A DNA stretch of 64,000 nt from Aureococcus anophagefferens (lineage: Eukaryota > Sar > Pelagophyceae > Pelagomonadales > Pelagomonadaceae): the NCBI RefSeq assembly GCF_000186865.1, contig NW_008705570.1, positions 1,205,203-1,269,202 of the forward strand, written 5' to 3'. This document shows, piece by piece, positions 29,670 through 59,399 of this stretch. Each line of letters begins with the position of its first letter. The stretch's first letter is position 1. The notes beneath the pieces were generated by a model. It had not been told where the DNA came from. It did not search any database and saw only the letters and a program-made list of their open reading frames with translations. A program made the translations under genes and the position numbers.

Positions 29670-32039
29670 ATGGGCCGGTCAGCCGCCGCGGCCCTCGCCG
29701 CCCTGGGCCTCGGCGCGGCCCACGAGGTCGTGGTCTACGAGTACGTCGCCGACAAGCTGAGCTTCGCCGAGGTGGGCGCCTCCCGCGACCCCCTCCCGGA
29801 AACTCGTCGCCGTCCGAAACTCGTCCGTCGAACCCGTAGGCCGAGGCGAACTGCGCGGCGAAAGGCGGCAAGATCGCGGACGTCGACGACCCGACGACGC
29901 TGGCGCAGATCTACCAGGAGTACGTGCCGTCGACGTCCTGCGCGCCGGCGTGGATCGACGCCGTCGACGAGGAGGCCGAGGCCGCGGCGGCCCGCGCCGA
30001 GGAGATCGCCGAGCAGCTCTGCCTGATGGACGTCGAGGAGTACGCGGCCGACGACTGCGCGTACATCGGCCGCAAGTGCGTCTACGGCCACGAGGACATC
30101 CCGCCCTGGGGCAACGACGTGTCCATGGTGAACTGCAACGCGGGCATCCCCTCCATCTGCGAGTACCCGCCCGCGACGGACAACCACGACCACCTGCCGC
30201 GGCGCACGCGGGACGCGCTCGAGCGGCCGCCGCCGGACGTCGCGCGCGTCCGGCGGTCCCTCGTGGTCGTCGACGGGCACGACGATCGCGCGCCGCGTCT
30301 CTTGGAGGACGACTGCCCCGGGGGCTGGCTGAGCTACGGCGGCCGCTGCTACCAGGCCGTCGGCAACAACCAGTACTTCAGCCAGTGCCTGGAGACCTGC
30401 GCCTGCGCCGGCGGCACCCTGGCCTGCCCGCGGGACAAGGGCACGAACACGTTCCTGAAGAACATGGTCAAGCCGCCGAAGAACCGCGCGTGGCTCGGCG
30501 TGTCCGACGCGTTCTCCGACAAGGACGGGTCCTGGCAGTGCGTCGGCGACGGCGAGCTGAACCGCCTGACGTACACGAACTGGGACAACTCGCTGGGCAA
30601 CGGCATGGACCGGGGCGCCAACTGCGCGTCCATGGACGAGGACGGCACGTGGGACGACGACTCCTGCAACGGCGACTACAACAACGACGACTACTCGTGC
30701 CTCTGCGAGCACGGCGGCGAGACGGCGGAGCGCTTCGTCTACCACTTCGCCGAGCAATTGATCGAGCTCAACGAGTGGCAGGACTGGCGCTTCACGGCCG
30801 ACGGCGAGTCCAAGGTCTGGCCGTGCTGCGCGGGGCGGGAAAGGGTGCGAAATTCAAAGGCTCTCTTATCTCGGCCGTTTTCCACTCGTTTTGGCTGATT
30901 TTTGGACGAGCGATCATCTCTCGGAGCGCTCTCAAGCGTAGATGCTCTTTTACGGAACGCGCGCGCGCGGAAAACGCACGTTGAAGCGACGTTGAATCAC
31001 CCTTCGCCTCAGGTGCTGCGCGACGTGCCAGAACGGCTGCGGCGGCGCGGGCTCCGACGAGTGCATGGACGCGGCCCACAGCGCCGTCATCGACGGCGTC
31101 GCCTACGGCGTCTGCGACAGCAACGGCGTCACGCCCTACGACGGCCAGCCCTGCCAGCGCGAGTGCGAGGAGGCGCGGTCGTGGTCCGACTTCGAGTTCG
31201 AGGAGGTGCGCCTCATGCCGCGCGGGTCGCCCTGCGGGCCGGGCTGGGCGCTGCCGGGCACGGCGGAGTCCTGCCGGTCTGCCCTGGCCCTCGTGGGGCG
31301 GTCCATGCAGACCGCGGGGCCGCTGGCGGGCTCCGCGCCGACGTGCGCGTGGTCGCTCGCGGACGGGTCCGCGGGCGCGTTCCTGCGGGACACGACCTGC
31401 GACGAGGCGACGGCGGCGGACTGGGACCGGGGCGCCGTCTGCGTGCCCTGCGACGACTGCGACGGCGTCGGCAGCCGGTGCGCGCGGCTCCGCGTCGACG
31501 ACCCGCAGAAATACGCGTACGCGTCCGCGGCCGACGACGCGTCCGCCGGGTCCTCGAAGAAGGACGGCGGCCAGACCTGCAACCTCCACTGCCTCCTCCT
31601 CGTGGGCGTCATCTTCATGTTGGTGTTGTTGACGACGTGCACGTGCATCGGCAACTACTTCCTCACGAAGGAGCGGCGCAAGTTCTCACCGACGCGCGGC
31701 AACCGCATCCCCAACGCCGTCTGGTCCGACGTCGAGCTCCAGGACGCCCACGCCATCCCCGCGGAGGCGCTCGAGGTGGGGTCCGTGCAGATGGTCGGCC
31801 GGGGCGGCTACGTGGCCGCGACGGCGGCGGACCCCGCGGACACGGCGTCGGACGCGGCCATCGCCGCGGCCGTCGGGCGCATCGACGCCGCCTGCGACCG
31901 CAGCGGCGACGACCCGGAGGCCGGCGCGCTCAAGGCCGACGGCGTCGAGGTCGACGACGGCGGCGCGCCCATGCCGCCCGTCGCGGACGTCGCGCCCGTC
32001 GTCGCGTCCGAGGTCTCCGGCGCCGAGATCTGCATCTAG
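29670..32039 (+). CDS. C-type-lectin-domain type I membrane protein, three exons, second intron is an introner element (703 aa)
   Basis: Exons: 29670-29771, 29840-30822, 31013-32039. Exon 1 encodes a signal peptide (MGRSAAAALAALGLGAAHE). A C-type lectin fold spans about residues 190-326: CPGGWLSYGGRCYQ, AWLGVSD, GSWQCV, LTYTNWD, NCASMDEDGTWDDDSC, CLCE. The canonical Ca-binding tripeptides EPN/QPD are not evident, so sugar binding is uncertain. A Cys-rich region follows, then one membrane helix (CLLLVGVIFMLVLLTTCTCIGNYF, about 552-575) and a ~130-residue acidic cytosolic tail. The 190-nt second intron interrupts codons between the lectin fold and the Cys-rich region (WP-CCATCQNG after splicing). 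Confidence 0.75.
29772..29839 (+). other. Intron 1 of the lectin gene, flanked by a 7-bp direct repeat
   Basis: GTGGGCGCC...CCCGTAG, 68 nt, phase 0, joining FAE to AEANCAAK. GCCGAGG occurs both at 29766-29772 and at 29840-29846. The transcript could therefore also be spliced as a GC..AG intron from 29766, removing one of the duplicated Ala-Glu pairs. The flanking duplication resembles a target-site duplication. Confidence 0.6.
30831..31012 (+). mobile_element. Introner element copy 1 (182 bp) forming intron 30823-31012
   Basis: The element starts CGGGGCGGGAAAGGGTG and ends CACCCTTCGCCTCAG, imperfect terminal inverted repeats. It is flanked by perfect 8-bp repeats GTGCTGCG (30823-30830 and 31013-31020). 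Its body shares TCTCGGCCGTTTTCCACTCG and TTTTTGGACGAGCGATCATC with the copies at 39366 and 58617. The intron is the left repeat plus the element: GT of the left repeat and terminal AG of the element. Splicing restores WPCCATC in frame. This copy is the most diverged of the three. Confidence 0.9.
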
Positions 32040-32173
32040 CCCTCCTCTTTTTAATTTTAAGCTGCCTATCGTCTAAACTTGGGTGCTGCGGCGCGCGGCC
32101 GCTTTTTTGCGGATTTGCGCTGCTCGATCCCTTCAATAAGACTTCACCGTCAGCCAGGCCGCCGTCCACAGCA

Positions 32174-32203
32174 ATGAGCATCGTCCCAATGAACACCACC
32201 TAG
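32174..32203 (+). promoter_or_regulatory. Possible 9-codon upstream ORF just before the BT1 transporter start
   Basis: ATG at 32174 opens MSIVPMNTT and stops at TAG 32201-32203, two bases before the main ATG at 32206. If this lies on the mRNA it would force reinitiation or leaky scanning. The transcript start is unknown. Confidence 0.3.
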
Positions 32204-32205
32204 AC

Positions 32206-33967
32206 ATGGACTCCAACGACGCGCTGATGCAACAGGACGTCACGGATGCTGCGCAAGAGGAGCCGGACGCCGCGCCGGACACGCCGCGCAGCGATCACAG
32301 CCTGAGCATCGACCCGCCCAGCGACCCCGAGCCGCAGCCCTGGCGCGCGCCCTGGACCCAGCTGCGATGCTTCTACGGGCGCCTCGGCGGCGCCTTTGGC
32401 TGGCGCTACGTGGCGACGGTGTCGCTGACCTACGGCGTGAACCAGGGCGTCGGCGAGGCGCTGCTCTTCGGCGCGCAGAAGTACTTCTTCCTCGACGACC
32501 TCGGGCTCAGCGCCGCGCGCGCGAGCCAGCTCGACGGCTTCTCCAACATCCCTTGGCAGATCAAGGCCGTCTACGGCATGGCCTCCGATAGTTACGCGCT
32601 CTGGGGCGGCCTGCGCAAGGCGCCCTACATGGTCTGCGCGGGCGTCGGCGGCGTGCTGGCCGCTTTGGCGCTCGGCGCGGCCCGCACGCGCAACGTCGGC
32701 GCCGTCGCGCTGCTCCTCGTCGTCGCGAACCTGTCCATCGCGTCGCCGGACGTCATGGTCGACGGCGCGACGGCGGAGCGGTGCCGGACGCACCCAAAGC
32801 TCGCCGCGGATCTCCAATCGTTGAGCTGGGGCAGTCTCTACGCGACGTCGCTTTTGGCGAACGTCGCCATGGGCTACCTCGTCCAGCCGGACGTTCTAGG
32901 AGCGCGCGGCTGCTTCGGGCTCATGACGCTGACGTCGCTCGCCGTGCTCCTCCCCGCGGCGGCGGGCTGGCTCGGCGAGGTTCCCGACGCGGCGCGGCCG
33001 GCGCGCGCGCGGCGCCCCCGAAGCTCGACGCGCAGCGGTCCGCGGTGTTCCGCTGCGCGGGCGCGACCTGCGCGACGTCGCTCGCCATCGGGAACCTGCA
33101 GGCGTTCTACCGGCGCGACGACGCGGACGCGGTCGTCGGCTCGCTGACCGTCGGCCTCGGCCTCTGCCTCTCGCTCTTCATCTTCCGCGGTTGAAGACGA
33201 TCTCGCGGGACCTCGCGTCGGCGGCGGTCTTCATCTTCCTCAGCGGCGCGCTGAGCCCGGCGACGGAGGTCATGTTCGCCTGGTTCCACGACGACGAGAA
33301 GGACGACGGGAATTGCGCGAAGCGGTGCGCCGAGGGCGACGAGGACTGCGGCTGGGCCCGGGACCGCGGCTACCCGTGCATCGGCAGCGTCTACTACGGC
33401 TACATGCGCGCGACGGGCCGCGTCTTCGGCCTCGTGGGCATCATTCTGTACAACAAGTACCTGAGCCGGTGGCCGTACCGGCGCGTCTTCGCGCTCGGGT
33501 ACCTCGTGACGTTTTTGGCGAACCTGTTGGATCTGGTCTGGGTGACGCGGACGAACCTGGCGCTCGGCCTCGACGACGAGTTCTTTTTGCTGGGGTTGGA
33601 GGTGGTCCAGCCCGTCGTGTCGCGCCTCGCGTCCATGCCCATGTTCGTGCTGGCCGCGAAGCTGTGTCCCGCGAACGTCGAAGCGACGCTCTTCGCGCTG
33701 CTCATGGGGCTGTCGAATTTTGGGAGCGTCGTCGGCATCTACAACGGCGTCGCGCTGCTCCACCTCTTCGGCGGCGTCGACGCGCCGGAATTCCCGCGCC
33801 TGTCGGCCTTCGTGGCGACGCGGACGCTGTGCTACCTCGCGCCGTTCGCGCTCGTGTTTGTCTTGGTGCCCGCGGGCGGGCCGGACGACGACGCGGACGA
33901 CGACGACGGGCCCGCGGCGCTCGAGCTCGTGGGGACGGACAGCGCGGAGGAGCGCGCGCTCGTGTAA
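32206..33967 (+). CDS. Folate-biopterin (BT1) family transporter, with two apparent 1-base deletions
   Basis: The N-terminal half shows the BT1 signature: GVNQGVGEALLFGAQKYFF and SNIPWQIKAVYGMASDSY followed by GLRKAPYM. The frame moves by one base near 32995-33015 (from WLGEVPDAA into PPKLDAQRSAVF) and again at about 33193 (LFIFRG into LKTISRDL). Both shifts are of the missing-base type in G/C runs, which fits sequencing error better than decay, because all three segments keep family residues. The C-terminal half includes CPANVEATLFALLMGLSNFGS, another BT1 hallmark. About 12 membrane segments in total. Substrates in the family are folates, pterins or SAM. Confidence 0.8.
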
Positions 33968-34207
33968 TATTTAGTCAGTCCAAGGAGAAATTAGACCTTA
34001 CTCGTAAGGCTGTCTGCCTGTCGCCCCCCGCAACGCTAACCCCGCGCCGAACCTGCCGGCAGCCTAACGTGCGGCTAAGTGTGCGGCTCGGCTTTAAGCA
34101 AGTCTTTAAGCTCGGCTGGTACCGGCCGGAGAAGCCAGAGATGCCGGCAAGATCCGCCCGGTGGGTGGGCGCTGGGTGGCGCATCTGACTTGCCCGAGCA
34201 GCCCGCT
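33968..34207. other. Spacer, no gene seen
   Basis: 240 bp between the transporter and the next start. It contains repeated GGCTAAGTGTGCGGCT-like words at about 34068-34095 and AAGTCTTTAAGCTCGGCT-like words at about 34096-34118. The frame of the downstream gene is open here from 34079, but the ATG at 34208 is the better start. Confidence 0.4.
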
Positions 34208-35770
34208 ATGGAGACTCCGAAGGTGAAGGCTGAATTCGACCAAGCGGACTACGACGCGCTGCTGAAGCATTACTACGAGCCCATCGTGCAGCACAACGTC
34301 GAGCTGCCCGGCGGCCGGACGCTCCGGCGGCAAACATCGCCGCCGCGAATTAATCAAGAATCACCTGGTTTCAGGGCGCTGCGGAAGACGATTGAGGGTC
34401 TCAAGAAATCAAACGCTGTCAGCAAGATCTACCAGCTGCTCCGCGAGCTCAACGCGTGGGAGACGCGACCGCCGTCGCTCGGGGGCGCGCTGCCGTCGTG
34501 GCAACGCGGCTTGGCGGAGGAGAGCGCCGTGACGGAGACGATCGACCTCACGGCGGAAGAAACCGTTATAGATGTCGACACGTACATCATCGACGTGTTG
34601 CTCGTGGGCGTCGTCCGGCCCAAGCCCGACCCCGACGGCGGCGCCCCGCGCATGGTCGCGGTCGCCGAACCGGCGCCGTTCCAGGTAAAGCGCGAGGCTG
34701 ACGGAGGCGAACAGTCCGGCGCCGAGACCGACGACTACGAGGCCGCGCCCCTGGTCGCTTCTCAAGATGGCGACTCTCAAGATGAAGAACCTCGGCCGCG
34801 CGCGGCCGGTAACGCCGCAACGGCGCCCACGCCCGCGTCAGCCACGATGTCGGCGCGCTACAATCCGGAGCCGCCCGCGGGCGCCATGCTTGACAAGGCG
34901 GTGGCGTGGGACGGCGAATGGTACCACAGCGGTTCCAAGAAGCTCCGGCCGCTGTGGGTGGTGAAGGATCCGGACGGCTTCCGCGTGCGCTGGAGCGACC
35001 GCACGGAGTGCGTCGTGGACAAGGACGAGGTGCGGCAGCACGGCAAGCGCATGAAACCCGTCCCCGCGTCGCCTGCGCCCGCGCCCACGCGGGGGAAGCC
35101 CGCGGCTGCCAAGGCACCATCCAAGAAGGCGACCGTCGCCAAGGCCGCGCCGACCAAGGCGAAGACAAAGGCGCCGGTCAAGGCCTCGGTGACGAAGAAA
35201 AAGGCGTCCAAGCCCAAGCGCAAACCAACGATCGAGTTCCTCGAGTTCCGCGTCATCCTCCATTCCTTCGACGAGGAGGACGACGCGGACGAAGAGGAAC
35301 TCATTCGGGTCGCCATGCCCGGCCTGCTACGTTGCGACAATGAGCACAAGTTCCGGGCGCGGGCGGCGAAGGAGAGCGACTGGTTCGACATCAACGAGGA
35401 TCAGGCGCTCGACGTGGGATGGAACATCGGCTTGGCCGACGAGTTCGAAGAGCTGAATCACGAAGAGCTGGGGGGCGAGGTTCAGTGGGGTGACTGCGCT
35501 GACTCCATCGAGGCCTTCGAGCGGGGGGAAGATCGCTTGGACAAGGGATGCTCCTACCTCTGGTGGTGGGGGATTGGGCTACAGACGCGGCGAAAACCGG
35601 GCTACACACCGCCGCCGCAAACGCCGGGCACGCGCGAGCGGGCGGTCCGCGGCACGGTGCAATTCCGGGTCCTCGACGCCGAATTCCGGGTCCCCTCCAA
35701 GGCAGAACTTCGGGACGGCGACGCCTGTCGCGTTGACTACTGGCCCACTCGGTCACACTGGTTAGTATAG
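34208..35770 (+). CDS. Nuclear-type protein with SUMO-interaction motif and H1-like Lys/Ala tail (~520 aa)
   Basis: From METPKVKAEF the N-terminus is helical, then TETIDLTAEETVIDVDTY contains two hydrophobic-acidic patches like SUMO-interaction motifs (IDLT, VIDVD). A compact segment WDGEWYHSGSKKLRPLWV, DGFRVRWSDRTECVVDKDEV resembles a Tudor or chromo-barrel. A Lys/Ala/Pro-rich stretch (AKAPSKKATVAKAAP and on) resembles linker histone tails. The C-terminal ~190 residues are acidic and Trp-rich (LWWWGIGLQ). Base composition is less GC-extreme than neighbours. No family is recognised; chromatin association is inference. Confidence 0.6.
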   Translation: METPKVKAEFDQADYDALLKHYYEPIVQHNVELPGGRTLRRQTSPPRINQESPGFRALRKTIEGLKKSNAVSKIYQLLRELNAWETRPPSLGGALPSWQRGLAEESAVTETIDLTAEETVIDVDTYIIDVLLVGVVRPKPDPDGGAPRMVAVAEPAPFQVKREADGGEQSGAETDDYEAAPLVASQDGDSQDEEPRPRAAGNAATAPTPASATMSARYNPEPPAGAMLDKAVAWDGEWYHSGSKKLRPLWVVKDPDGFRVRWSDRTECVVDKDEVRQHGKRMKPVPASPAPAPTRGKPAAAKAPSKKATVAKAAPTKAKTKAPVKASVTKKKASKPKRKPTIEFLEFRVILHSFDEEDDADEEELIRVAMPGLLRCDNEHKFRARAAKESDWFDINEDQALDVGWNIGLADEFEELNHEELGGEVQWGDCADSIEAFERGEDRLDKGCSYLWWWGIGLQTRRKPGYTPPPQTPGTRERAVRGTVQFRVLDAEFRVPSKAELRDGDACRVDYWPTRSHWLV

Positions 35771-35813
35771 TAATTTACATGCCGTGGTAACGTACATGGA
35801 GTACACCCACGAG

Positions 35814-37085: not shown

Positions 37086-37106
37086 GTCGTTCGCGCAAGT
37101 ATTATT

Positions 37107-37687
37107 CTAGCAGACCTCCATCGGCATGTGGCGGCGCTTCAGGATCCCTGCAACGGCAAACAAATTACATGGCGAGCGCGGTCTTGACCACGACTGTGTC
37201 AAGGCCGCGAGGCCGCCCGGCCGCTTCCGCTTCCGCCGCCGCACGCGCGTGACGTTCGCCGCCGGCCGCGGCCGCGGCGCCGCGCGGGTTCTCGGCGCCG
37301 CCGCGGCGAGGGGCTCGCCGCGCGCGAGCCGGTCGACGCAGGTCTCGTCGAGCGCCGCCCGGAGCGCCGCGTTGCCCGCGTCCGTGAGGTGGAGGCCGTC
37401 CTCGCGGAGGTAGCCGCCCCAGTGCGCGCCCCACTGCATCTGGCCCCGGACGTCGCAGAACGGGATCTCCAAGCGCCCCGCGAGCGACCGCTGCCGCGCG
37501 TTGAGGTGCTCCGTGTGCACCTTGTGCGCCGGCAACAGCGACTGGAGCACGACCGTCGCCCCCGTGCACCGTTTCATGTATTTCAAAGCAAAGGCCGCGA
37601 TGTCAACGTGTCCGCCGCGCGGGCCGCCGGTGCTGCACGTCGTGACGCCGAGCAGCACGAAGACGAGCCGCGGCTTAGCGGCGCAGG
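37107..37687 (-). CDS. SGNH/GDSL-like hydrolase, N-terminal part lost in the gap
   Basis: The visible 190 residues begin inside the assembly gap. VFVLLGVTTCSTGG, a segment with ATVVLQSLLP and finally EDGLHLTDAGNAAL carry the block III-V pattern of SGNH hydrolases; D and H of DGLHLT would be the catalytic pair. The nucleophile Ser block lies in the missing part. The last ~60 residues are basic (RVRRRKRKRPGG) and may be unspliced or genuine tail. Esterase activity on acylated glycans or lipids is typical of the family. Confidence 0.55.
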
Positions 37688-38029
37688 NNNNNNNNNNNNN
37701 NNNNNNNNNNNNNNNNNNNNNNNNNNNNNNNNNNNNNNNNNNNNNNNNNNNNNNNNNNNNNNNNNNNNNNNNNNNNNNNNNNNNNNNNNNNNNNNNNNNN
37801 NNNNNNNNNNNNNNNNNNNNNNNNNNNNNNNNNNNNNNNNNNNNNNNNNNNNNNNNNNNNNNNNNNNNNNNNNNNNNNNNNNNNNNNNNNNNNNNNNNNN
37901 NNNNNNNNNNNNNNNNNNNNNNNNNNNNNNNNNNNNNNNNNNNNNNNNNNNNNNNNNNNNNNNNNNNNNNNNNNNNNNNNNNNNNNNNNNNNNNNNNNNN
38001 NNNNNNNNNNNNNNNNNNNNNNNNNNNNN
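37688..38029. other. Assembly gap (342 N)
   Basis: A run of 342 undetermined bases removes the 5' ends of both flanking genes (SGNH hydrolase on minus, karyopherin on plus). Their starts, and any shared promoter, probably lie inside it. Confidence 0.98.
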
Positions 38030-40999
38030 CGCGCTCCAGGCCGAGGACGCGGACGACGGCGCGTCCCAATCGCTGGAGAACTGCGCGCGCGCGGCGCTCG
38101 ACGTCTGCGAGGCCGGCCGCGCGCGGAGCGGCCTGGGCCTGCTGCGGTCTTTAGCAGACGAGCTCGACGCCGTCGACTGCGCGCCGCGGCGGCGCTACGA
38201 CCTCGAGGCGCGCGCGCGCGGCGTCGCGCGGCGCGCGGCGCTGCCCGCTTTATCGCGCGCGCTCGCGGCCGCGCGCGACGGCGACCAGGCCCTCCTTTTA
38301 CTGAACTGCGCCAAGTCCTGGCTCGGCCGCGCCGAGGCGACGCTCGTGGATCTGGTGACGGGCGCGGACTTTGAATTGGGACGGTTCCTCGAGCGCTGCG
38401 TGAGCGCGGACTGCGGCTCCGACGAGACGCGGTGGCAGCTCGCGGGCGTCGCGGCGACGACCTTCGCCGAGGCCTGCCGGAGGGGCCGCGAGGGCGAGGA
38501 CGACGCCGACGGGCCGGCCCTCGCGAGCTGCGAGCGCTTCTGCGCGCGATGCCGATCGCTCGTGGACCGATCCGCGGAGCTCACGCGGTCGGGGACGCTC
38601 GACGGCGAGGCCGCGGCGTCGGAGTGCGCGAAACATGTAGCGAGCGTCGCGGCGGCGCTGTCGTCGTCGATCCACGGGGCCCAGCTCTGTCTGTCCTTCG
38701 GGGTCTGGGAGCTCGCGCTCGCGGCGACGGCGCATCCGAGGCGGTCCGTGGGCGTCGTCGCGTTGGACGCGTGGCTCGACCTCCAGGACGTGCCCGTGGA
38801 CCAGCGCCACGCGAGTTTAGGCGCACCGACCTACCGGCGCGTGCTCGACGCGTTGGTGGCCCAGTGCGCGGCGTCGCGCAACGACTACGACGAGGACGAG
38901 GCCGACGCGTTGCACTCCTTCCGCGAGAGCTCGCAGGACGTCTTGGTCGCGACCTACTTTTTGCTCCGGGGCGAGTACTCGGCGACGCTCGGGCGGGCTT
39001 TGGGCAACGCGCTCCAGGCCGTCGCCGCGGGCGACGCGGCGGCCGTCGCCTTGGCGGAGTCCGCGCTCTTCGCGTTGCGGGCCGCGAAGCGCGAGATCCT
39101 GGCGGACCTCGCCAAGGCGGGGAAGGCGGCGGCGGACCCGGCCGTGCGCGACGCGCTGGAGACGACGCTGGGCTTCTGCATGTGCCCCGCGTTCGGCGAA
39201 TTGTTCGGCGCGGGCCGCGGCTTCGTCTTCTGCTGCGGCGCGGCGGATCTGCTGGGCGCCTTCGCGTCCCTGCTGAGCGCGTCGGCCGACGGCGCCAAGC
39301 CGACGCTCGTGGCCGTCGCCGTGCGCTTCCTGGGCGGCGCGCTCGACGCGTCGCGGGGCAAGGACCGGGGCAGGACAAGAGAGCGAAATTCCCAACTTCA
39401 AAGCCTCCTATCTCGGCCGTTTCCCACTCGTTTCGGCTGATTTTTGGACGAGCGATCATCTCTTGGAACGGTCTCGAAGCGTGGATGCTTTCTCCGGAAC
39501 GCGCGCGCGCGGAACACTCACGTTGAAGCGACGTTGAATCTCTCTTGTCCTGCCCAGGCAAAGACGAGGCGCTCGCGACGTCGTGCGCGGCCGCGGTGCG
39601 GTCCATCTGCGTCGCCCACGCCAAGGAGCTCTGGCGCGACGACGGCGCGCGCGCGGCGCTCGTCGACGCCCACGCGAACGCCGTGCGGCGCAGGGAGGAT
39701 GCACCGACACTCCTCGCCGCGCGCCACGCGGTCGAAGGCGCGGTCCGCGTCGTCGCGGCCGCGTCCAAGAGCGTGCGCGGTTTAGAAACGACGGACGAGG
39801 CGGCCGTCGCCGTCGCCTTCGACCCCGTGCTGGCGGCGTTGAGCGCCGCCGTCGACCGCGCGCGCGCCGCGGGGCCGGACGACCCGGGACGTTTCCGGGG
39901 CGTCGCGGACGCGCTGGGCCTCGTCGAGGTCGCGGCGAACTTCGCCACGGAGAAGCTCCGCACGCTGCTGGGCACGCGGCTCTGGCCGCTGCTGGGCCCC
40001 TGCCACGAGGCGCCGCTCCGCGACGACTACGACGTCGTCGCGCGCGCGCTCGCAACGCACGGCGCCGTCGCGCTCCCGCGGCCCTCGGAGCGGAGCCCGC
40101 CGGCGGCCGTGGGCTTCGCGAGCCCGCCGTCGAGCCCGACGTCGCCGGCGTCGGCGCGGTCCGCCGCGGCGCTGCGCCACGCGTCGGAGCTCGCGGATTT
40201 GAGCCTCCGCTATTTCGAGCGCGGCGGTTGGGCGTGCGCGCTGGACGCGCTGGGAGCGACGGTGGAGGCCCTGGCGCCGCCGAAGCAGGCCTACGGGCCC
40301 GACGGCGCCGTGGGCGGGAGCGACGAGCGGGCGGCGCTGGAGCTGCTGAACGGGGTGGCGACGCGCGCGGTCGTGAAGGGGCGGGATCTATTGTCGTCGG
40401 GCGCGGCGGGCGCGCACGCGTCCCAGCTCTTCGAGTTCCTCAAGCGCTATCTGCTGCTGTGCCCGGCGGCCCTCTTCGCGCCGCCGCAGCTCCTGGCGCT
40501 CGTCTGGGACCTATCGCTCGCGCACCTCGAGGCGTCGGACGTTTCTCTAGGGAGCGACGGCGCGAAGGAGAACGTCGTCTTCCTGGGCCACCTGGCGAAG
40601 AAGGCCGAGGCGGCGCCGGGGGCCTTCGCGGCGCCCTTCGTCCAGGCGAACCTGGGCCACCTGCGCGCGCGCGGCGCCGCGGCCGTCCGGGGGCTCGTGG
40701 CGAAGCTCGCCGGACCCGCGCCGTCGACGCTGCGGCCGGCGCTCGCGGAGTGCCTCCACGCGGTCTGCGCGCCGGCGCCGGATCTGGCGCGCGACTGGCT
40801 CGGCGGCGCCCTCGCCGACGCGGCGCTCTTCGACGCGCGGACGCTGCCCCTCGAGGAGCGCGGCCGCGTCCACGCCGCGCTCTGCGGGCTGCTGCCGGAG
40901 AAGCCCAAGTTCAAGGCCCTCGCCGTGGACCTCGCGAAGATCGCCTGCGGCGAGGCGTCCGTCGACGCCCTCCTCGCCTACGAGATCCCCGCGCACTAG
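38030..40999 (+). CDS. Transportin-3/importin-13-like karyopherin, 5' cut by gap; intron is an introner element
   Basis: Exons visible: 38030-39357 and 39558-40999 (codons from 38031). The product is a long series of amphipathic helices typical of HEAT-repeat karyopherins. DALHSFRESSQDVLVATYFLLRGEY matches the central Exportin-1-like region of the TNPO3/IPO13 group (FR.. .. DVL..), and the C-terminus KFKALAVDLAKIACGE resembles their last repeats. The N-terminal Ran-binding repeats are lost in the gap. The 200-nt intron has a GC 5' site and splices ASRG to KDEALATSC in frame. Family is clear, subfamily tentative. Confidence 0.65.
39366..39557 (+). mobile_element. Introner element copy 2 (192 bp) forming GC-AG intron 39358-39557
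   Basis: Ends CGGGGCAGGACAAGAG and CTCTTGTCCTGCCCAG are near-perfect inverted repeats. Flanks are GCAAGGAC (39358-39365) and GCAAAGAC (39558-39565), seven of eight identical. The body shares long blocks with copy 3 (CTCGTTTCGGCTGATTTTTG and others). As the left duplication begins GC, the host uses a GC..AG intron; the element itself supplies the terminal CCCAG. Splicing recreates Gly-Lys-Asp exactly. Confidence 0.93.
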
Positions 41000-41012
41000 G
41001 TTCGGGGGTGTA

Positions 41013-41672: not shown

Positions 41673-41680
41673 CGGCGTTC

Positions 41681-41736: not shown

Positions 41737-41754
41737 GCAGCCTCTCTGCAGCCG

Positions 41755-43881: not shown

Positions 43882-46800
43882 ATGGGCCTCCACCGCGCGC
43901 TCGCCGCGCTCCTCGTCCTCGCCCTCGGCGCCGCGGCCTCCGAGGACTTCTCCCAGGTCGCCAAGCTCGTCGCGTCCGACGGCGCGGCGGGCGACGAATT
44001 CGGTTGGTCCGTCGCCTCGAGCGGCGACTTCGTCGTCGTCGGCGCATATCTCGACGACGACGCCGGCACCTCTTCGGGCTCGGCCTACGTGTTCCGCACC
44101 GTCGACGGCGTCACGGAGCAGATCGCGAAGCTCGTCTCCTCGGACGCCGCGGCGCAAGACCAGTTCGGCGCCTCCGTCGCCATCCACAACGACATCATCG
44201 TCGTCGGCGCGAATCACGACGACGACGCCGGCTACGATTCGGGCTCGGCCTACATCTTCAAGACATCCGACGGCGGCGCGACCTGGCCCCAGGTCGCCAA
44301 GCTCGTCGCGTCCGACGGCGCGGCGGGCGACGAATTCGGTTGGTCCATCGCCTCGAGCGGCGACTTCGTCGTCGTCGGCGCGAATCTCGACGACGACGCC
44401 GGCACCTCTTCGGGCTCGGCCTACGTGTTCCGCACCGTCGACGGCGTCACGGAGCAGATCGCGAAGCTCGTCTCCTCGGACGCCGCGGCGCAAGACCAGT
44501 TCGGCGTCTCCGTCGCCATCCACAACGACATCATCGTCGTCGGGGCGGCCTGGAACGACGACGCCGGCTCCAACTCGGGCTCGGCCTACATCTTCAAGAC
44601 ATCCGACGGCGGCGCGACCTGGCCCCAGGTGGCCAAGCTCGTGGCTGACGACGCCGAGGCGTACGACCTCTTCGGCTGGTCCGTCGCCGTCGAGGGCAAC
44701 CTCGTCGTCGTCGGCGCATTGCAGGACGACACCAACGCGGGCTCGGCGTACGCGTTCCGCACGACGGACGGCGGTGCGACCTGGACCCAAGCGGCCAAGC
44801 TCGCCCCAGGCTCGGCAGCCTATCACTTCGGCACGAGTCTCTCCATTAGTGGCAACACACTCGCCGTCGGCGCGTATGAGGCCAACAGCTTCGCTGGCGG
44901 TGCTTACCTCTTCTCAACGACGGACAACGGCGCGAGCTGGACCCAAGACGCGTATTTGCAGGCTAGCGATTACGCGTCTGCCGACCGCTTCTATGAAGCC
45001 CTCGTCCTCAGTGGCAACCGACTCGTCGTCGGGGCAACCTACGACAACGACATGGGCGGCAACTCAGGTTCGGTCTACATCTTCGAGGCCCCCCAGCCCG
45101 CGCCCAGCCCGACGGACTCCGCGCCGACCCCCCGCCCCGTCGCGACCCCGATCTCCGCGTCCAGTGACGGCGTCGTGACCCACCTCGAGTCCCTCTCCTG
45201 CCTCGGCAACGACGCCTGCCCGAGCGCGTTCACCCTCGACGAGTCCGGCATCGCGTCCGAGGTCACGCCGTCGTCGACGTTCGGCTCCGACGGCACGGTC
45301 ACGCTCGTCATGGACGTCGTCACGACGGGCAGCAGCTCCGAGCTCACCGGGACGCTCTCCGTCGGCGTGGACTGCATCGACTTCCAGCTCGCGGCCGGCT
45401 TCTGCCAGGAGGCCGATTCGGCGTCGTCGTGCGCGGAGCACTCGACCGTGTCGCGGACGCTCGACCCGACGACGCTCGTCGAGGCGTGCCCCGGCAGCGC
45501 GGTCCAGGACGAGAACGGCATCATCACGCTCACGCTCGGCGTCACGATCGGCGTCGGCCACTCGGACCCCTTCGACGCGCTCGCGTCCTTCGAGCACGAG
45601 GTGACGTACACCATCGACGTCGTGGACCGGGTCGTCATGTCCTCGTCCACGGCCGGCATCGACACGCAGACGGTCTCGGAGAGCCTCGACCTCGGCGTCG
45701 CCGCGCACCGCGTCGCCCTCGCCTCGAGCTCCACGGCGCCCTGCGACATCTACTCCGCGTCCGCCAGCGCGACCATGGACGCGAACTCGCGCGTCTGCCT
45801 CATGCTCAACACGACGGACGAGGACTCGGAGTCCTACGTCGCGTTCCTGAAGACCGCGACCGTGCGGAACCTCGACTCGGGCCTCGAGTACGCGCTCGTC
45901 TCGAACCGGAAATTCGGCCAGTCCGCCCCCGGCTACAAGTACGCCGGAGCCTGGCTCAACGACGCCCACGCGGACCTCGCGGAGCTGACCAAGGCCTACC
46001 ACGACTACTTCACGTTCTTCCTCCCCCCGGGGCTCCGCCCCGGCGAGGGCGCCACGGCGAACCTCGAAGTCCAAATGGTCGTCGAGTACCACCACGTCGA
46101 CACCGGCGCGCGCAAGCTCCGCCGCGCGACGCGCGAGCTCCAAGTCGCCGCGAACGAAGACGCGGCGGTCCTCCAGCTCGGAGCCTCGAACCCGTCGCTC
46201 GCGGAGGAGGGCACGGCCGGCGTGGACCTGAAGCTCGAGCTCGACGGACTTCCCCTGGACGACTACCTGGCCTCCGGCGACGTCGACGAGAGCCTCGTCG
46301 CGAGCACCGTGGACGCGGCCCGGGTCATCACGGGGGACCAGGTCGAGCTCACGGGCGTCGCCGCGTCCGCCGACGGCATCTTCGTGCAGATCCACGTCTC
46401 CGGCATCGACGACGCCGGCGCGCGCTCCGTCTCGGCCGCCGTCGCGGCGGACGTGACGTCGGGCAACTTCTACTTCCGCCTCGCGTCGAACGGCCTCGTC
46501 GTGAACACCGTGGTCCTCGCCGGCGACGTCGTCGCCTACGAGGAGGCCGCGCCCATCTCCGTCGTGGACCTCGAGGTCGAGAGCGCGATCGCGTTCGAGA
46601 ACCTCGACGTCTCGGCGTTCAACGACGACGCGCGCGCGCGGCTCCAGTTCAAGAAGGCCATCGTCGCGTCCGTCGCCGACGTCACGAGCACGGACCAAGT
46701 CAAGAACGTCCGCGCCGTCGAGGCTTCGCGCCGCCGCAAGCTCGAGGCGGGCGCCCTCGTCGAGTACACGGTCGTCGTCACGCAGACCCTGCGCGACGCC

Positions 46801-47172: not shown

Positions 47173-47184
47173 GCGCCCAGCGCT

Positions 47185-47305: not shown

Positions 47306-47390
47306 GTCCCCGCCTCCACAAGTCCCACCGTGTCGAGCCCGACGCCGTCCCGACGACGCGCCGTCCGTAGCTCTCCCCCGATAATGTGCT

Positions 47391-53019: not shown

Positions 53020-53221
53020 GGTTTAAGGCTTTGGACAGGGCGGTTTTGCCGGCGTGTGCGTCCATCGTCGAGGCCTTCGTCGCGCGCTGCCTGAAACCGT
53101 CACGGTCGACCTTCGCGCGCTTCGAACACAAGCTTCGCCGAGATCCAAACCATCCGGAAGGCGACGTCGCGCCCGCACAAGTGCGCGCGCACCTGAACCA
53201 CCAACTCAAACGCACCGAGCA

Positions 53222-56203
53222 ATGGATCTCAACGACGCGGAGCGCGAGCGCGAGCCGAGCGAGGACATCGACGAGGTGCCGCCGGGCGTCATCACCGCCG
53301 ACCAGGTCCTCGCCGCGCTGCGCAGCGTCGACGTGCCGCACAACGAGGACCGGAAGAACGTCAAGAGCGACGAGAGCGCGCTCGTGCGCTCCCTGACGCT
53401 GGGCGCGCTGTCGCGGAGCCACGCGCCCGCGCGCGTGTCCGCGTGGGCGCGGCGGCGGCCGCGCCTCGCGCGGCTCCTCGCGACGTACGGGTGCCAGCAG
53501 CTGCCGGCGGGCTTCCCCTTCGCGTCCATCCAGCTCAACAGCGACTACGCGTCCGCCATGCACTGCGACCGGTCCAACGACGGGCCGAGCGCGATCATCG
53601 CGCTCGGCGACTTCGAGCACGGCGAGCTCTGGAGCTACGACCGCGGCGTGCTCCCCTGCAAGGGCGAGGTCAAGCTCTTCAACGGCAACCAGCCCCACTG
53701 CACGCTCCCTTTTAAGGGCGAGCGCTTCAGCCTCATCTTCTTCTCCTCCAGCGGCCACGACCGCATGGCGCCGAAGGAGGCGAGTTGGTTGGAAGCGCTG
53801 GGCTTCGCGCGCCTGCCGACGGGCACTTTGAGCCACAGCTACCGCGCCGACGAGTTCGCGAGCCCCCACATGGAGCACCCCTACACCTTCGGCTTCCACG
53901 TCACGACGGAGGAGCGCTGCGCGTACGCGACGAAGTCGCTCGAGGCCTGGCGCGAGGATTGGACGCCCGGCGTCGACGACATGGCCGCGGCCTGCGCGGC
54001 GCGGCGCAAGCCCGGCGAGGTGCTCGGGCCCGACTCCGTCTGCCCGGGCTTGAAATTAGGTTATGCACGGTTGCGGTCGCCGACGCTCCGCGGCGACGAC
54101 CGCGACGGCGCGGGCCCTTCCGGCCAGGCGGAGTGCCCGCGCGTCGTCGCGGGCGAGGACCTGCGGGGTCCTCTGGTCGGCGTCGTCATGAGCCTCGAGC
54201 GGAGCCGCGAGGCCATGATCAAGCAGGACGGGACCGTCGGCGACCAGCTCGCCATCTTCCAGGTCTTCTACCAGAACGGCCAGGCCGAGGAGATGGAGCT
54301 CCACGAGATCGCGAGATGCCTCGAGCCGACGGCCGACGTCCGCGAGGACGACTTCTCCGCGCCCCACCTCGCGCGCCGGGCGCTGCGCGCGCGGGGCCTC
54401 GGGCTGGACCTCGGGCCGCTGACGTCGGACCCGCGCTACGCCGTCGACGCGGCCGTCGTCGCCGCGCGGCGGGCCAGGCACGCCACAATCCGCGCGACCT
54501 TCGAGGCCGCGGAGGTCGCCGGCGACCTCGTCCTCCCCTCGGCCGTCGCCTTCGTGCAGTCGGGCCAGCGCTTCGACGTCGAGGATCTGGTGTGCGCTTT
54601 ACGCCTCGTCACGCGGACGTACGGCGGCGCGGAGGACCTGAAGAACCTGGCGATCTTCTGCAAGGCGGCGGGCGCGGCCGACGACGCGAGCCTCAAGGCG
54701 TTGGCGTCCCTGCCGGGCGAGCCCCAGCGCGCGGCGGCGCTCATGCTCGCGCTCGATTTGCGCCTGCACCGCCTCGGCTTCTCCGAGAAGATGGCGGCGT
54801 ACGCGCCGACGGTGGACGACCTGTGCCTCGACCGCGAGGCCATGAACGACAAGTTCGAGGAGTTCGGCCCGCCGCCGCGGCCGACCCTCGGCGTGAAGCG
54901 CCTCGTGCTCGACCTCGCGGCCGCGGCGGTTTCGGGAGACCAACTTCCCAAGGAGGCCGCTCAGTTCCGCAAGGAGTGCCGGGACGAGCTCGAGCGCGAG
55001 AAGCCGCCGGCGAGCTACCTCGACGAGATCGGCGGCGCCGTCTGGGTCGCTTTCAACGACGTCGTGGCGCCCGACGGCGCTGTGGCCGCCGCCGCGGAAG
55101 AGCACAAGGCCGCGGGCGTCGTCCAGAACCACCGCGCGCACCTCGTCAACGCGCGCTTCCAGAGCGGCGACGACGACGACGTGGCCCTCGGCGCCACGGT
55201 GCGCAAGAGCTTCCTCGGCCACGGCGTCTTGGAGGGCGTCGTCGCGGAGAAGACGGCGACGCCCGCGCTCAAGTACCTCGTGAATTGGCACTCGGAGAAG
55301 CCCGAGTGGTACACGCCGGCGCAGCTGCGCCCCCTCGTCGTCCGCGAGGAGGCGGCGCCGCAGATCACCGGCGCGACGGCGCCCGCGGTGGTCCTGCCCC
55401 TGAGCGCCGCGGTCGCCGGCGACGCGCGGCTCCTCTACTGCCTCGCGCGGCGCGGGCCGACGGCGTGGCACCGCGTCGGCGCGCCGCGCGGCGCCAAGGA
55501 CGAGGCCGACGCGAGCGCCCTCGTGCCGCTGAGGCTGCTCGACGCGTCGCGGCCCGACGGCGGCGCCGTCGTCCTCGCGCGCCGCGACCGCCTCGTCGCG
55601 TGGGAGGACGGCGACGCGGCCGCGGCGACCGTCGCCGACGCGACGGTCGCGGCCGCGGCGGCGCGCGCGGCGGCGCACGCGGCGGCGGCGCGCAAGCGCG
55701 AGGCGGCGGCCGCGCCGCCGCCCGAGCCCGTCGTGACGACGACGTCCTCGGGCCGGCGCAAGCGGTCCGTCGCGCGCGCGTCGTACGCCGAGGACGACGA
55801 CGACTTCGACGAGGCGGCGCCCCGCGAGAAGAAGCCGCGCTGGATGGACGCGTCGGACCTCCTGCTCAACGACGCGCGCATCGCCGTGCGCCAGGACAAC
55901 CCGAAGAAGGCGGGGTCCAAGTCGGCCCTGCGCTACGACGCGTACAAGGCCGCGACGACGGCGTCCGAGTTCCTCCGGCTCGGCGGCTCCAAGGCGGACC
56001 TCGCCCACGACTGCACCAAGGGCTTCGTCACCGTCCTCGACGACGACGGCGGCGCCGGCAAGGGCCCCGAGGACGCGACGGCGAAGCCCCCGAGGCCGTC
56101 GACGGCAAGGTCGAGGAGAACTAAGAATGTGCATAGAAGTGCCAGTCACGGTGCGCGGCGCATGGGCATTTGCATATCTAGCGCTGAGGTCGAGGAGACT
56201 TAA
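53222..56203 (+). CDS. 2OG-Fe(II) oxygenase with C-terminal Tudor-like segment (~993 aa)
   Basis: Residues ~95-180 carry the double-stranded beta-helix signature: ASIQLNSDYASAMHCDRSN with H114-x-D116, PSAIIALGDFEHGELW, FNGNQPHCTLPF with the distal His159, and GERFSLIFFSSS with Arg168 for 2-oxoglutarate. This resembles the protist oxygenases related to the TET/JBP class; nucleic acid or protein may be the substrate. A segment at about 655-705 (ATVRKSFLGHGVLEGVV, KYLVNWHSEKPEWY) looks like a Tudor/chromo barrel. The C-terminus is basic and acidic patches (GRRKRSVARASY, EEDDDDFDE). The last ~30 residues are uncertain: another frame ends EAVDGKVEEN at 56124. Confidence 0.7.
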   Translation: MDLNDAEREREPSEDIDEVPPGVITADQVLAALRSVDVPHNEDRKNVKSDESALVRSLTLGALSRSHAPARVSAWARRRPRLARLLATYGCQQLPAGFPFASIQLNSDYASAMHCDRSNDGPSAIIALGDFEHGELWSYDRGVLPCKGEVKLFNGNQPHCTLPFKGERFSLIFFSSSGHDRMAPKEASWLEALGFARLPTGTLSHSYRADEFASPHMEHPYTFGFHVTTEERCAYATKSLEAWREDWTPGVDDMAAACAARRKPGEVLGPDSVCPGLKLGYARLRSPTLRGDDRDGAGPSGQAECPRVVAGEDLRGPLVGVVMSLERSREAMIKQDGTVGDQLAIFQVFYQNGQAEEMELHEIARCLEPTADVREDDFSAPHLARRALRARGLGLDLGPLTSDPRYAVDAAVVAARRARHATIRATFEAAEVAGDLVLPSAVAFVQSGQRFDVEDLVCALRLVTRTYGGAEDLKNLAIFCKAAGAADDASLKALASLPGEPQRAAALMLALDLRLHRLGFSEKMAAYAPTVDDLCLDREAMNDKFEEFGPPPRPTLGVKRLVLDLAAAAVSGDQLPKEAAQFRKECRDELEREKPPASYLDEIGGAVWVAFNDVVAPDGAVAAAAEEHKAAGVVQNHRAHLVNARFQSGDDDDVALGATVRKSFLGHGVLEGVVAEKTATPALKYLVNWHSEKPEWYTPAQLRPLVVREEAAPQITGATAPAVVLPLSAAVAGDARLLYCLARRGPTAWHRVGAPRGAKDEADASALVPLRLLDASRPDGGAVVLARRDRLVAWEDGDAAAATVADATVAAAAARAAAHAAAARKREAAAAPPPEPVVTTTSSGRRKRSVARASYAEDDDDFDEAAPREKKPRWMDASDLLLNDARIAVRQDNPKKAGSKSALRYDAYKAATTASEFLRLGGSKADLAHDCTKGFVTVLDDDGGAGKGPEDATAKPPRPSTARSRRTKNVHRSASHGARRMGICISSAEVEET

Positions 56204-56280
56204 AGGACGGGCGCTCTGGGTGGTCGCGCCGCGGGGCCGAGGAGTGGCGCCCGCGGCGGTCATGGTCGCGCCCGCGTCCC
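56204..56280 (-). promoter_or_regulatory. SECIS-like hairpin in the 3' UTR of the selenothioredoxin
   Basis: On the minus strand, ATGAC (56263-56259) is followed by CGCCGCGGG, a loop of ~14 nt, the exact complement CCCGCGGCG, and CGAC, giving the UGA/GA non-canonical quartet of a eukaryotic SECIS. GACGCGGGCGC before and GCGCCCGTC after can form the lower helix. The apical loop has CC at about 12 nt from the quartet where most SECIS have AA; CC variants are known. It lies about 35 nt past the TAG stop. Confidence 0.65.
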
Positions 56281-56314
56281 GCGGTCTCCTGCGATCCTGC
56301 TCGCCGGTCCTTCC

Positions 56315-56771
56315 CTAGCCGCCGGACGCCCAGACCTCGAACTTGGCCTGGTCGACGCCCTCCATCTTGCCCGCCTCCTTGCCGTCCTTGATGACGACGA
56401 CCGTGGGCATGCAGGAGACGCCGTGCTTCTGGCAGAGCGACTGCGTCTCCGGGTTCTCGACGTCGACCTTGCAGAGGAGCGCGGCCGCGGTGGCGGCGCG
56501 CGCGTCGTACTTGGGGCCGAACGTCTTGCACGGCGGTCACCACGACGCCGTGAAGAGGATCACGACCTGCGGCGTCGCGCGCGGCGTCGAGGCGGCGCGC
56601 GGGACGCGCGCGCGCGGCTTCGAGGCGGCGCGCGGGACGCGCGCGCTCGCGGCGCGGTGCGGGGAGCGCGAGACGCGCGCGCGCGCGCGCTCGAGGCGCC
56701 GGAGTGCTCGCGTTCTTGCCGGATTTGATGGCGGTCTCGTAATCGGCGACGGTCTTGATCTCCGTCGACAT
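56315..56771 (-). CDS. Thioredoxin selenoprotein (Trx with U-P-P-C), two exons (56771-56712, 56566-56315; 103 aa)
   Basis: Exon 1 (20 codons, MSTEIKTVADYETAIKSGKN) splices through a 145-nt GC..AG intron to VVILFTASW. The next codon is UGA (56539-56537), then PPCKTFGPKYDA. In thioredoxins this is the W-C-G/P-P-C active site, so UGA stands exactly where the nucleophilic Cys belongs; the frame continues through KVDVENPETQSL and the cis-Pro strand SCMPTVVVIKDG to GVDQAKFEVWASGG and TAG. Total length is the thioredoxin norm. A SECIS-like hairpin follows, so the UGA is read as selenocysteine. A nonsense mutation is the alternative but would be a strange coincidence. Role: cytosolic disulfide reduction. 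Confidence 0.8.
56567..56711 (-). other. GC-AG intron with ~33-bp tandem repeats in the selenothioredoxin gene
   Basis: The intron starts GCGAGCAC and ends CGCCGCAG on the minus strand. It contains CGAGGCGGCGCGCGGGACGC (plus-strand sense) at 56588 and 56621, 33 bp apart, with a weaker third copy, and a GC dinucleotide run. The boundaries were chosen because SGKN-VVILF reproduces the thioredoxin strand; no GT alternative gives this. Confidence 0.6.
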
Positions 56772-56936
56772 GTTGGACGGCGGTTCCTGCGCAGCGGTTC
56801 TCATCTCTCAGTAGCGCGGTCAGGCGCTCATGGGGCGTCTTCTGTGTGGGTGATTCGGACGAGCAAGTGGCTGGCACGGAGCTGAGGTGCAAGCTTGTGG
56901 CAGTTTCGGCCTCAAACGGCGATTTTTACAACTCGC

Positions 56937-57300
56937 GCGCGCCCGCGCATGTCGCGGCGTCGGCGGTCGGCGCGAGGTCGAGGAGCGCCCGTTCCCAGGA
57001 CCGCACGGCGGCCTCCTGCTCGAAGAGGCGCACGACGTTCTCGCGGACGCGGCGCCGGAGGTCGCGGCGCGCGTCAACGTCCGTCGCGAAACGGACGGCG
57101 AGGCGCACGTAGTCCGCCGCCGAGGACGCGATGGTGTCCTCGACGCCGATGTGCTTCAGGTAGGCGTAGGACCAGCGGCCGCTCCTTGACGACGCCCCGC
57201 ACCTTCGCCATGTTGTCGCGGAACCGCGCCTGCCGCCGCGCCCACGAGCGCGCCGGAGACGTCGCGCAGGACGACCGCGATAGGCGTCGGCGAAGTAGCA
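56937..57300 (-). pseudogene. Disrupted C-terminal fragment resembling a GT41 (O-GlcNAc/SPINDLY-type) glycosyltransferase
   Basis: On the minus strand YAYLKHIGVEDTIASSAADY, VRLAVRFATDVDARRDLRRR and RENVVRLFEQEAAVRSWERA match the last helices of TPR-linked glycosyltransferases. Upstream pieces (YFADAYR, then RQARFRDNMAKVRGVV) are in other frames, needing at least two shifts. No catalytic part is present. Either an old gene remnant or a poorly assembled tail. Another ~85-codon ORF fragment (VVAFDGFRVRQTGDRELRVE near 57430-57480) lies just upstream. Confidence 0.4.
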
Positions 57301-57582
57301 CATGTAGCGCAGAGGACCTTGGTGTGCACCTCCATCGTCCTCCCTCCGTGCTCCTTGTTTACTAGCGCTGCCATCTCCGGCGGCGCCGAGGCCAACCCCT
57401 GGGACGCTAAGGACCATATCTTGCCGTCCTTCTCGACGCGCAGCTCGCGGTCGCCCGTCTGGCGCACCCGAAAGCCGTCAAAGGCGACGACGAGAGTTCG
57501 AAGTCCTAGCGGTCGGCATGACTCCGTGGTGCGCCGTCGCTTACGCGGCGGCATCAGAACCCGCTCCACACCGCCGCAGCTG

Positions 57583-57741
57583 TCACGAACGCGGCTCCTC
57601 AGATAAGGCCACTCCAAAAGCGCGTTCGATCTCTGCGAGCCACTCGTCTCGTTGCAGGGTAACGTTTGGCCGACCCCCGGCGAGAACAAGAAGCCGGGGA
57701 TCCGCATCGGCTCGCCGTATGTATTTGGTTCCGCTCGACAT
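57583..57741 (-). CDS. Possible 52-aa ORF, hypothetical
   Basis: MSSGTKYIRRADADPRLLVL to FGVALSEEPRS* has protein-like composition and no unusual codons. It lies in a 1.1 kb stretch (about 57.05-58.17 kb) that is otherwise broken and less GC-rich. An overlapping frame continues upstream as LFRLDDTIFPPVRRPEGQF, so it may be a decayed larger gene with a frameshift rather than a complete small gene. Confidence 0.25.
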   Translation of the reverse strand: MSSGTKYIRRADADPRLLVLAGGRPNVTLQRDEWLAEIERAFGVALSEEPRS

Positions 57742-58167
57742 GCTTATGGACCGCGAATTGACCTTCCGGCCGCCGGACCGGTGGGAAGATCGTGTCGTCC
57801 AGACGAAACAAGTACTCGGAACTGCCCCTCGTCGACGGGGTCACGCGCCTGCAGTACACGTCTTCCGAAAGCTGATTTCACATAGCAAATAAGTGAAAAT
57901 ACTAGTACGCGTTCCTTTAGCACCTCCGGACCGCGGTCTCGATGGTGTACTTCCCATCGAAATCGGCGTCGATAGGGCTGCAAAACGCCGGCCGGCAAGT
58001 TGCTCTTTCTCTGGTTTGTTATTGTCCAGAGGAGGCGCATGATGTCGAAAGGCGAAGCCCGGGCTCTAAGATGTCTCGGGCCGCAGAGCTGACTCCGCTC
58101 GCCGAAAAACTGCCTCTCGATTCGTGTCCTCGACGCGATTTCTCGTCAATCGAGCCCCTGAGTCCTT
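57742..58167. other. Spacer with no gene recognised
   Basis: About 425 bp of mixed composition between the OGT debris and the first methyltransferase paralog. Only short ORFs are present on either strand; the minus-strand piece described for the 52-aa ORF extends into its left end. Confidence 0.35.
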
Positions 58168-59399
58168 ATGGCGACGCGTCGATTTGGGCCGTTGCGTCGC
58201 GGCTTTGTGGTCGCCGCGGTCTGCGTCGGGCTCTCGCTCCATCCCGGCGCCTGCGGCGACCTCGCGACGCCCGGGGACGGCGTCTACGACGCGGCGTTCT
58301 TCGAGCAGCACCGCGCGAACGCCGACGTCTACGGGCCGCTCGTCGCCGCGATAGCCGCGGCGGCGGGCGGCCTGCCGGACTCGGCGCTCGACGTCGGCTG
58401 CGGCCACGGGCTCCTCGTCGAGGCCTGGCGCGAGGCGGGCGTCGCGCGGAGCTTCGGGCTCGAGGGGTCGCCCGCGGCCGCGGCGATGTGGCCCGAGGCG
58501 TTCCGCGACGAGTTCTACAAAGTCCAGAACCTGACCCTGCCCGGCGCGGCCGCCACGGCCGAGGCGACGGCCCTCGTCACGAGCTTCGAGGTCGCTGAGC
58601 ACCTGCCCGTCGAGGACAGGGCAGGAAAAGAGAGCGAAATTCCCAACTTCAAAGGCTCCGATCTCGGCCGTTTTCCACTCGTTTCGGCTGATTTTTGGAC
58701 GAGCGATCATCTCTCGGAACGGTCTCGAAGCATGGATGCTTTTTCCGGAACGCGCGCGCGCGGAACACTCATGTTGAAGAGAACTTGAATCACCCTTTTC
58801 CTGCCCAGGTCGAGGACGCGGACGAATTCGTCGCGGTCGTCGTCGCGAAAAGCCCGCGCCACGTCTTCTTCGGCGCCGCGACGCCGTCCCAGGACCGCGG
58901 GGGAAATCCCACGCCCTTGAACGAGAACACCTTCGCGTTCTGGCTCGACCGCTTCGAGGCCGCGGGCTACGTCTTCGACGCGGCGCGCACCGCGCGCGTG
59001 CGCCAGCTGCTCTTGGGGACGCCCGCGGCGCGGCCGGTCCTCCGCAAGAGCTGGTGGTACCCCAAGAACATCCTCGCCTTCGCCCCCGCGAGCGCGCGGC
59101 CGGAGCTCGACGCGGCGGTGGCCAAGCACCCGGACGCGGCGGACATGCGCGCGGAGGCGTACCTCGCCGCCGGCGGGTCCGCGGCGGACGTCTTCGGCGA
59201 CATGTGGCGCCGGGACTGGCTCGCCTTCGCCGACCTCTTCTACGCCGAGCGGGCCGCGGCGCGGCGCCGCCTCGTCGCCGCCCACGGCCCCGTCGACGTG
59301 TCAAGTGCAGGCCTCCTCTACTCCCGCCGCCCCGCCACACCCGCGGCCCCGCCGCCGCCGCCGCCTCGCCACACCCGCGGCCCCGCCGCCGAGCTGTAA
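58168..59399 (+). CDS. Methyltransferase-like paralog A, intron is an introner element (343 aa)
   Basis: Exons 58168-58608 and 58809-59399, phase 0. A signal-like leader (RRGFVVAAVCVGLSLHPGACG) precedes a class I SAM-binding motif ALDVGCGHGLLVEAW, then ARSFGLEGSPAAA (acidic strand-2 end), TSFEVAEHLP and HVFFGAATPSQD. The rest includes FWLDRFEAAGYVFD and RKSWWYPKNILAF. The C-terminus is Pro/Ala-rich. It is a head-to-tail duplicate of the gene at 59596; nearly identical over the catalytic part. It keeps 15 residues (DAAFFEQHRANADVY) lost in paralog B. Secreted or organelle methyltransferase; substrate unknown. Confidence 0.75.
58617..58808 (+). mobile_element. Introner element copy 3 (192 bp) forming intron 58609-58808
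   Basis: Ends CAGGGCAGGAAAAG and CTTTTCCTGCCCAG are inverted repeats differing mainly at the second base. Target duplications GTCGAGGA at 58609-58616 and 58809-58816 are perfect. GT of the left duplication and AG of the right end give the splice sites. The paralog at 60000 has a single GTCGAGGACGC at the same codons, so the empty site is preserved nearby. The body is closely similar to copy 2. Confidence 0.95.

Follow-up and report, generated by a model that had tools for sequence, protein, structure and literature searches.

Introners of Aureococcus anophagefferens, as described by Huff, Zilberman and Roy in 2016, are reportedly short non-autonomous DNA transposons. One splice site is said to lie in the element and the other to be co-opted from the duplicated target, with exact removal of the insertion. 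The core introner mechanism is, on that account, already established, and the mechanism proposed here for three copies in the window (the whole 64,000-nucleotide stretch of A. anophagefferens DNA that was analysed) is the same. Transposons of the hAT superfamily make 8-bp duplications and start with CAGGG. Our copies resemble them in both features but end at the acceptor side in CCCAG, not CCCTG, and the symmetric target of that superfamily is only weakly seen.

The mechanism is also established in the accessible part of Gozashti et al. 2022 (PMC9860276), where the type of Fig. 2B, from Symbiodinium, has a target-site duplication (TSD) of 4 bp, terminal inverted repeats (TIR), a 3' splice site within the element and a 5' splice site taken from the TSD. 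The copies described here share the TSD, the TIR and the splice-site layout, with a duplication of 8 bp versus the 4-bp TSD of that type. The same part of the source (PMC9860276) describes an Aureococcus sp. family (Fig. 2F) in which both splice sites lie in the element and 12 bp are added, a layout that our data do not favour. In Pelagomonas calceolata, according to the accessible text of PMC9481584, intron lengths peak near 210 bp, which its authors liken to introner elements; the elements here are 182-192 bp and the introns about 190-200 bp, a comparison made by length only. The G+C content of the window, 71.5%, is compatible with the published A. anophagefferens genome, for which the accessible part of PMC3033335 gives 69.5% G+C and 39.6% GC-AG introns, and the comparison goes no further than compatibility. 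At its core the observation is a clean instance of a known route from transposon to intron.

Re-inspection of the sequence agrees with the initial annotation, which had placed three copies with common bodies, inverted ends and flanking duplications in the window (Table 1). The left/right 8-mers are GTGCTGCG/GTGCTGCG in copy A, GCAAGGAC/GCAAAGAC in copy B and GTCGAGGA/GTCGAGGA in copy C. The duplication length of 8 bp given earlier holds for copies B and C; that of copy A is really 10 bp, with GTGCTGCGCG on both sides. The element is 182 bp in A and 192 bp in B and C, where the initial annotation spoke of a 192-bp consensus. Ungapped identity to copy B is 93% for copy C and 69% for copy A. The three host genes look unrelated by domain content, as had been claimed: a Pfam scan found a C-type lectin domain in gene A, a methyltransferase domain in gene C, and no family in the 616 residues scanned of gene B. 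The window contains no match to RNA families at gathering scores.

Table 1. Element copies and the paralogous empty site, in window positions
Feature	Position	Strand	Remarks
Copy A, putative intron	30823..31012	+	left duplication 30823-30830 and element 30831-31012 (182 bp); GT donor, AG acceptor
Copy A, right duplication GTGCTGCG	31013..31020	+	identity extends to 31022, giving a 10-bp duplication
Copy B, putative intron	39358..39557	+	left duplication 39358-39365 and element 39366-39557 (192 bp); GC donor, AG acceptor
Copy B, right duplication GCAAAGAC	39558..39565	+	one mismatch to the left one
Copy B, left inverted end GGGCAGGACAAGAGAG	39368..39383	+	
Copy B, right inverted end CTCTCTTGTCCTGCCC	39540..39555	+	
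Copy C, putative intron	58609..58808	+	left duplication 58609-58616 and element 58617-58808 (192 bp); GT donor, AG acceptor
Copy C, right duplication GTCGAGGA	58809..58816	+	
Empty (pre-insertion) site GTCGAGGA	59998..60005	+	in tandem paralogue of copy C gene; from direct repeats D5/D6 and alignment
Tandem paralogue without element, aligned part	59643..60340	+	97% identity in both 300-bp blocks that flank copy C

When the left duplication and the element are cut out, the coding frame is open in all three genes, and when the element is kept there is at least one stop in every forward-strand frame of each gene (300-bp flanks in both cases). Homologous proteins also run across the three junctions. 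Nine homologues were aligned to gene C, including the transcriptome-derived P0003 and P0013 (organism name beginning 'Odontel'); eight have no gap at the junction, and the ninth, P0004, lacks two residues just past it. At the gene A junction a homologue that is 42% identical (P0039) is gapless, with a 7-residue gap about 5 residues upstream, and at the gene B junction a 99% identical protein (P0040) is identical across it. All these proteins may derive from alleles that lack the element, and they indicate what splicing would restore, not that splicing occurs. The open frames and the homologues agree with the earlier prediction that removal of the left duplication plus the element would restore the original codons.

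Gene C has a tandem paralogue that is about 97% identical, exactly 200 bp shorter (8 + 192) and carries the target 8-mer once. The direct-repeat offsets between gene C and this paralogue, around copy C, are 1389 and 1189. As judged from the alignment, this one paralogue in the window is an empty site free of the duplication, such as belongs to introners of the DNA-transposon type. The empty site was absent from the initial annotation. Together the occupied and empty genes form a compact natural pair for testing transposon-made introns. Precise loss of an intron through cDNA would give the same paralogue sequence. We nevertheless regard intron loss in the paralogue, or reverse splicing at the RNA level, as very improbable compared with DNA insertion: locus-specific 8-mers enclosing inverted ends are predicted by DNA insertion and not by reverse splicing, and copies occur on many contigs among the matches listed.

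In the whole genome, which comprises 49.05 Mb in 86 contigs, a 22-bp core of the element has 1,006 + 1,043 = 2,049 matches when up to 2 mismatches are allowed, and a reversed control has 0. On these counts the family is not due to chance. The density is 2.7 core matches per 64 kb, so the window, with three copies, is average. The 2,049 core matches and the three domain-distinct genes of the window fit the description of introners as near-identical putative introns dispersed in unrelated genes. Ninety-seven copies were parsed, from 88 loci (102 raw matches) and the window, after matches too close to the end of a locus and repeated hits on one copy had been removed. Loci L001-L008 were chosen by similarity to copy A and L009-L038 by similarity to copy B, and lean to those types; L039-L088 are exact core matches taken in contig order on contig 1 and are less biased. 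Duplicated flanking 8-mers recur in these other copies, as the initial annotation would lead one to expect, with 80 of the 97 perfect, 9 having one mismatch and 8 having two, the most that the parser allowed. The family has both the target-site duplications and the terminal inverted repeats of a DNA-transposon type introner. Carriage by viruses was considered and rejected: viral contigs contain no exact match to the 22-bp core and 4 to a 16-bp part of it, and at these 4 the similarity to copy B extends over only 16-20 bp at best, so they are not the element.

A class could be assigned to 94 of the parsed copies. Parsing had gone wrong in the remaining three, each of which reads by eye as AG followed by GY. 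Among the 94, the duplication starts with GC (56) or GT (35) in 91, compared with 20% GY among dinucleotides of the flanks. Two of the three exceptions read AG|GT after the boundary is moved one base by hand. In the third (L056) the gene is on the other strand, and the element apparently lies inside a resident intron. A donor from the left duplication and an AG from the element, proposed initially for the three window copies, therefore describe 91/94 copies as parsed. Duplication positions 3-8 are near background, so the GY start more likely comes from selection than from target preference. The base just 5' of the duplication is T in only 2% of copies; the bases adjoining the duplication are slightly biased, and some target preference is conceivable. 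A palindromic target preference was weak (RC at positions 7-8 in 30/94 copies versus a background of 21.5%, p 0.017) and was not adopted. GC donors are below the background expectation (56/91 versus 79%, p 0.00016), and intron phases 0/1/2 are represented by 41/28/25 copies.

The frame across the predicted removal, read on the AG strand, is kept in 91 of 93 testable copies and broken in 2. Scored separately and on both strands, the two flanks agree in strand and frame in 85/89 cases. Full retention would bring a stop or frameshift in 94/94 copies, and removal leaves a stop near the junction in 0/94. Joined 600-bp flanks contain a stop in the chosen frame in 10/97 copies, perhaps where a gene ends or another intron lies. 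Low coding scores also occur (8 copies listed within L039-L088), and the position of such copies in low-scoring sequence would suit unspliced insertions in pseudogenes or wrongly assembled exons. The kept frame, the AG and GY found on the coding strand nearly without exception, and the long ORFs on both sides of the copies in the window genes make that explanation extremely improbable.

A further alternative places both splice sites in the element, with the donor being a GC at element position 5; the mRNA would then retain 12 nt in frame, made up of the left duplication and 4 nt of the element. The accessible part of Gozashti et al. 2022 (PMC9860276) reports such a layout for its Aureococcus sp. 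family, where exactly 4 + 8 bp are added. GC is indeed present at element positions 5-6 in 91/94 copies, and this donor would leave a stop near the junction in 0/94. An internal donor leaves the GY at duplication positions 1-2 unexplained; we consider it improbable because of this constraint only, and not because of stops.

The duplications, the one empty paralogue, the frame, the GY constraint and the AG on the coding strand are all features read from sequence, and they argue that the copies are very probably non-autonomous MITE-like introners inserted in exons, with the donor coming from the duplication, the acceptor from the element, and a precise predicted removal. Each copy would be a DNA transposon with inverted ends, lacking its own transposase and moved by one acting in trans. 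It would enter an exon at a staggered cut, giving the 8-bp duplication. The first two bases of the left duplication (GT or GC) would become the 5' splice site, the AG at the element end would be the 3' splice site, and removal of one duplication and the element, presumably by the spliceosome, would restore the pre-insertion mRNA. Insertions on the wrong strand or at non-GY targets would mostly be purged. In the pre-mRNA the inverted ends would pair, with a mismatch at the second base leaving the A of the AG unpaired. A single family search, for the hAT transposase PF05699, gave no match here and likewise none in any control genome.

The initial annotation spoke of one splicing logic. That rule needs a supplement, as 23/94 copies have the AG at the opposite end of the body. 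In the sense class (n=71) the body starts with CA, CG or CC (GC in one degenerate copy) and ends with AG. In the antisense class (n=23) it starts with CT (two were parsed as CC) and ends with TG or GG; this class equals the sense class with mirrored ends and a reversed body. Read on the AG strand, both typically have the form GYN6 + CA-GGG ... CCC-AG + GYN6. Gene strand was taken from a codon model trained iteratively, starting with the three window genes. By its joint codon score the gene lies on the AG strand in 71/71 sense and 22/23 antisense copies; the last antisense copy is marginal. Inspection showed L056, counted among the 71, to be the wrong way round, which gives AG on the gene strand in 92/94. 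The less biased set L039-L088 holds 31 sense, 20 antisense and 3 unclassed copies. The orientation of the ends relative to the gene may be new. Searches limited to open-access literature gave passages with no mention of end polarity, of the rare T or of the 10-bp duplications described below; all three are possibly already in Huff et al. 2016.

Genome-wide, with an exact core, CT..TG ends give 275 matches and CT..AG ends, which would offer an AG on both strands, give 24. Only six of the 24 span about 192 bp; the other 18 are longer and are probably chance matches in the flank. On inspection five of the six have CT..AG-type ends (L093 with one extra base) and one has CA..AG. Among the five, L089 and L090 are sense copies in coding sequence, L093 is antisense, and the remaining two have low coding scores. 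On a tree of 91 bodies the polarity label has to change 6 times (bootstrap 5-7), and strongly supported branches force only 1 of these changes; after trimming of the ends and omission of 2 divergent rows (89 rows) the number is 7. On these 89 rows a tree constrained to keep the 22 antisense ones in a single clade is not rejected (AU p 0.0745). Repeated switching of polarity is suggested by these trees. Starting from a symmetric CA..TG element, one mutation at either end would give each class; inversion of the body between its ends would do so too.

The folding of 90 copies, each as an intron with short exon flanks, was predicted for isolated RNA; the inverted ends pair with a mean probability of 0.88 and the acceptor A of the AG is unpaired at 0.88. 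The base opposite this A is A in 68 copies, G in 17, C in 5 and T in 0. Setting it to T lowers the predicted unpaired probability to 0.05, and in 90/90 copies the probability with T is below that with A. L089 and L090 have T at the donor side and are intron-like in coding sequence, so T there is rare rather than excluded. Its rarity could also reflect common descent from a CA end.

A donor-side pair other than CA tends to equal bases 9 and 10 of the target itself. These match in 5/6 CC copies (5/5 without the mis-parsed L042) versus 3/69 CA copies (p 3.5e-6), in 10/18 CG copies versus 16/69 CA copies (p 0.018), and also in the degenerate GC copy (n=1). Up to 16 copies, including copy A, would have a 10-bp duplication, although about 4 of the CG ones are expected by chance. 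On the body tree the 16 rows with G need 16 changes, and therefore the donor-side base does not follow the body in descent.

These observations allow a tentative reading of the two polarities, to which we give less than even weight. The body may be inserted either way, with the acceptor end bases following the gene strand and one AG on one strand as the usual state; the form with AG on both strands would be rare since its ends would pair perfectly and enclose the AG in an RNA hairpin. The base on the donor side does not descend with the body and may in part be taken over from the target; this hints that repair or conversion remakes that end at or after insertion. If the end polarity and the rare T prove to be genome-wide, they would mean that a selected RNA structure is at work in new introns, and that one transposon body has a route to supply introns in both directions.

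The window was also scanned for other introner families, using the pattern GYN6...AG+GYN6 with inverted ends. There are 11 matches on the + strand and 13 on the - strand; only copies B and C match at 12/12, and copy A was missed. The other 9 matches on the + strand exceed a block-shuffle control (0 in two shuffles, + strand only) and so are not chance matches as measured by that control. The sequence that holds them is GC-rich, repetitive and coding-like.

Only one of the 94 classed copies, at a locus outside the window (L056), was clearly a wrong-way copy, its orientation being opposite to that of its gene. It was apparently inserted where a short resident intron begins. At another outside locus (L081), two copies of the antisense type, a class set by body direction relative to the AG-bearing element end, lie 245 bp apart core to core, with very short sequence separating them.

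Within the window, the methyltransferase gene that holds copy C is duplicated in tandem; the second gene lacks the element and, by alignment, is also about 45 bp short near its start. The predicted spliced ORF with copy B contains a run of Ns, and a separate tandem repeat includes two 260-bp stretches with 98% identity.

Positions of the features (window coordinates unless a locus is named)
Feature	Position	Detail
Wrong-way copy	L056, ~1392	reverse strand
Paired copies	L081, 1430 and 1675	
N run	37688-38029	342 N
Tandem repeat	43883-44730	units ~165-171 bp
Methyltransferase gene pair	58162-60900	
Short tandem repeat, copy C gene end	59323-59391	GC-rich, 17/34-bp unit
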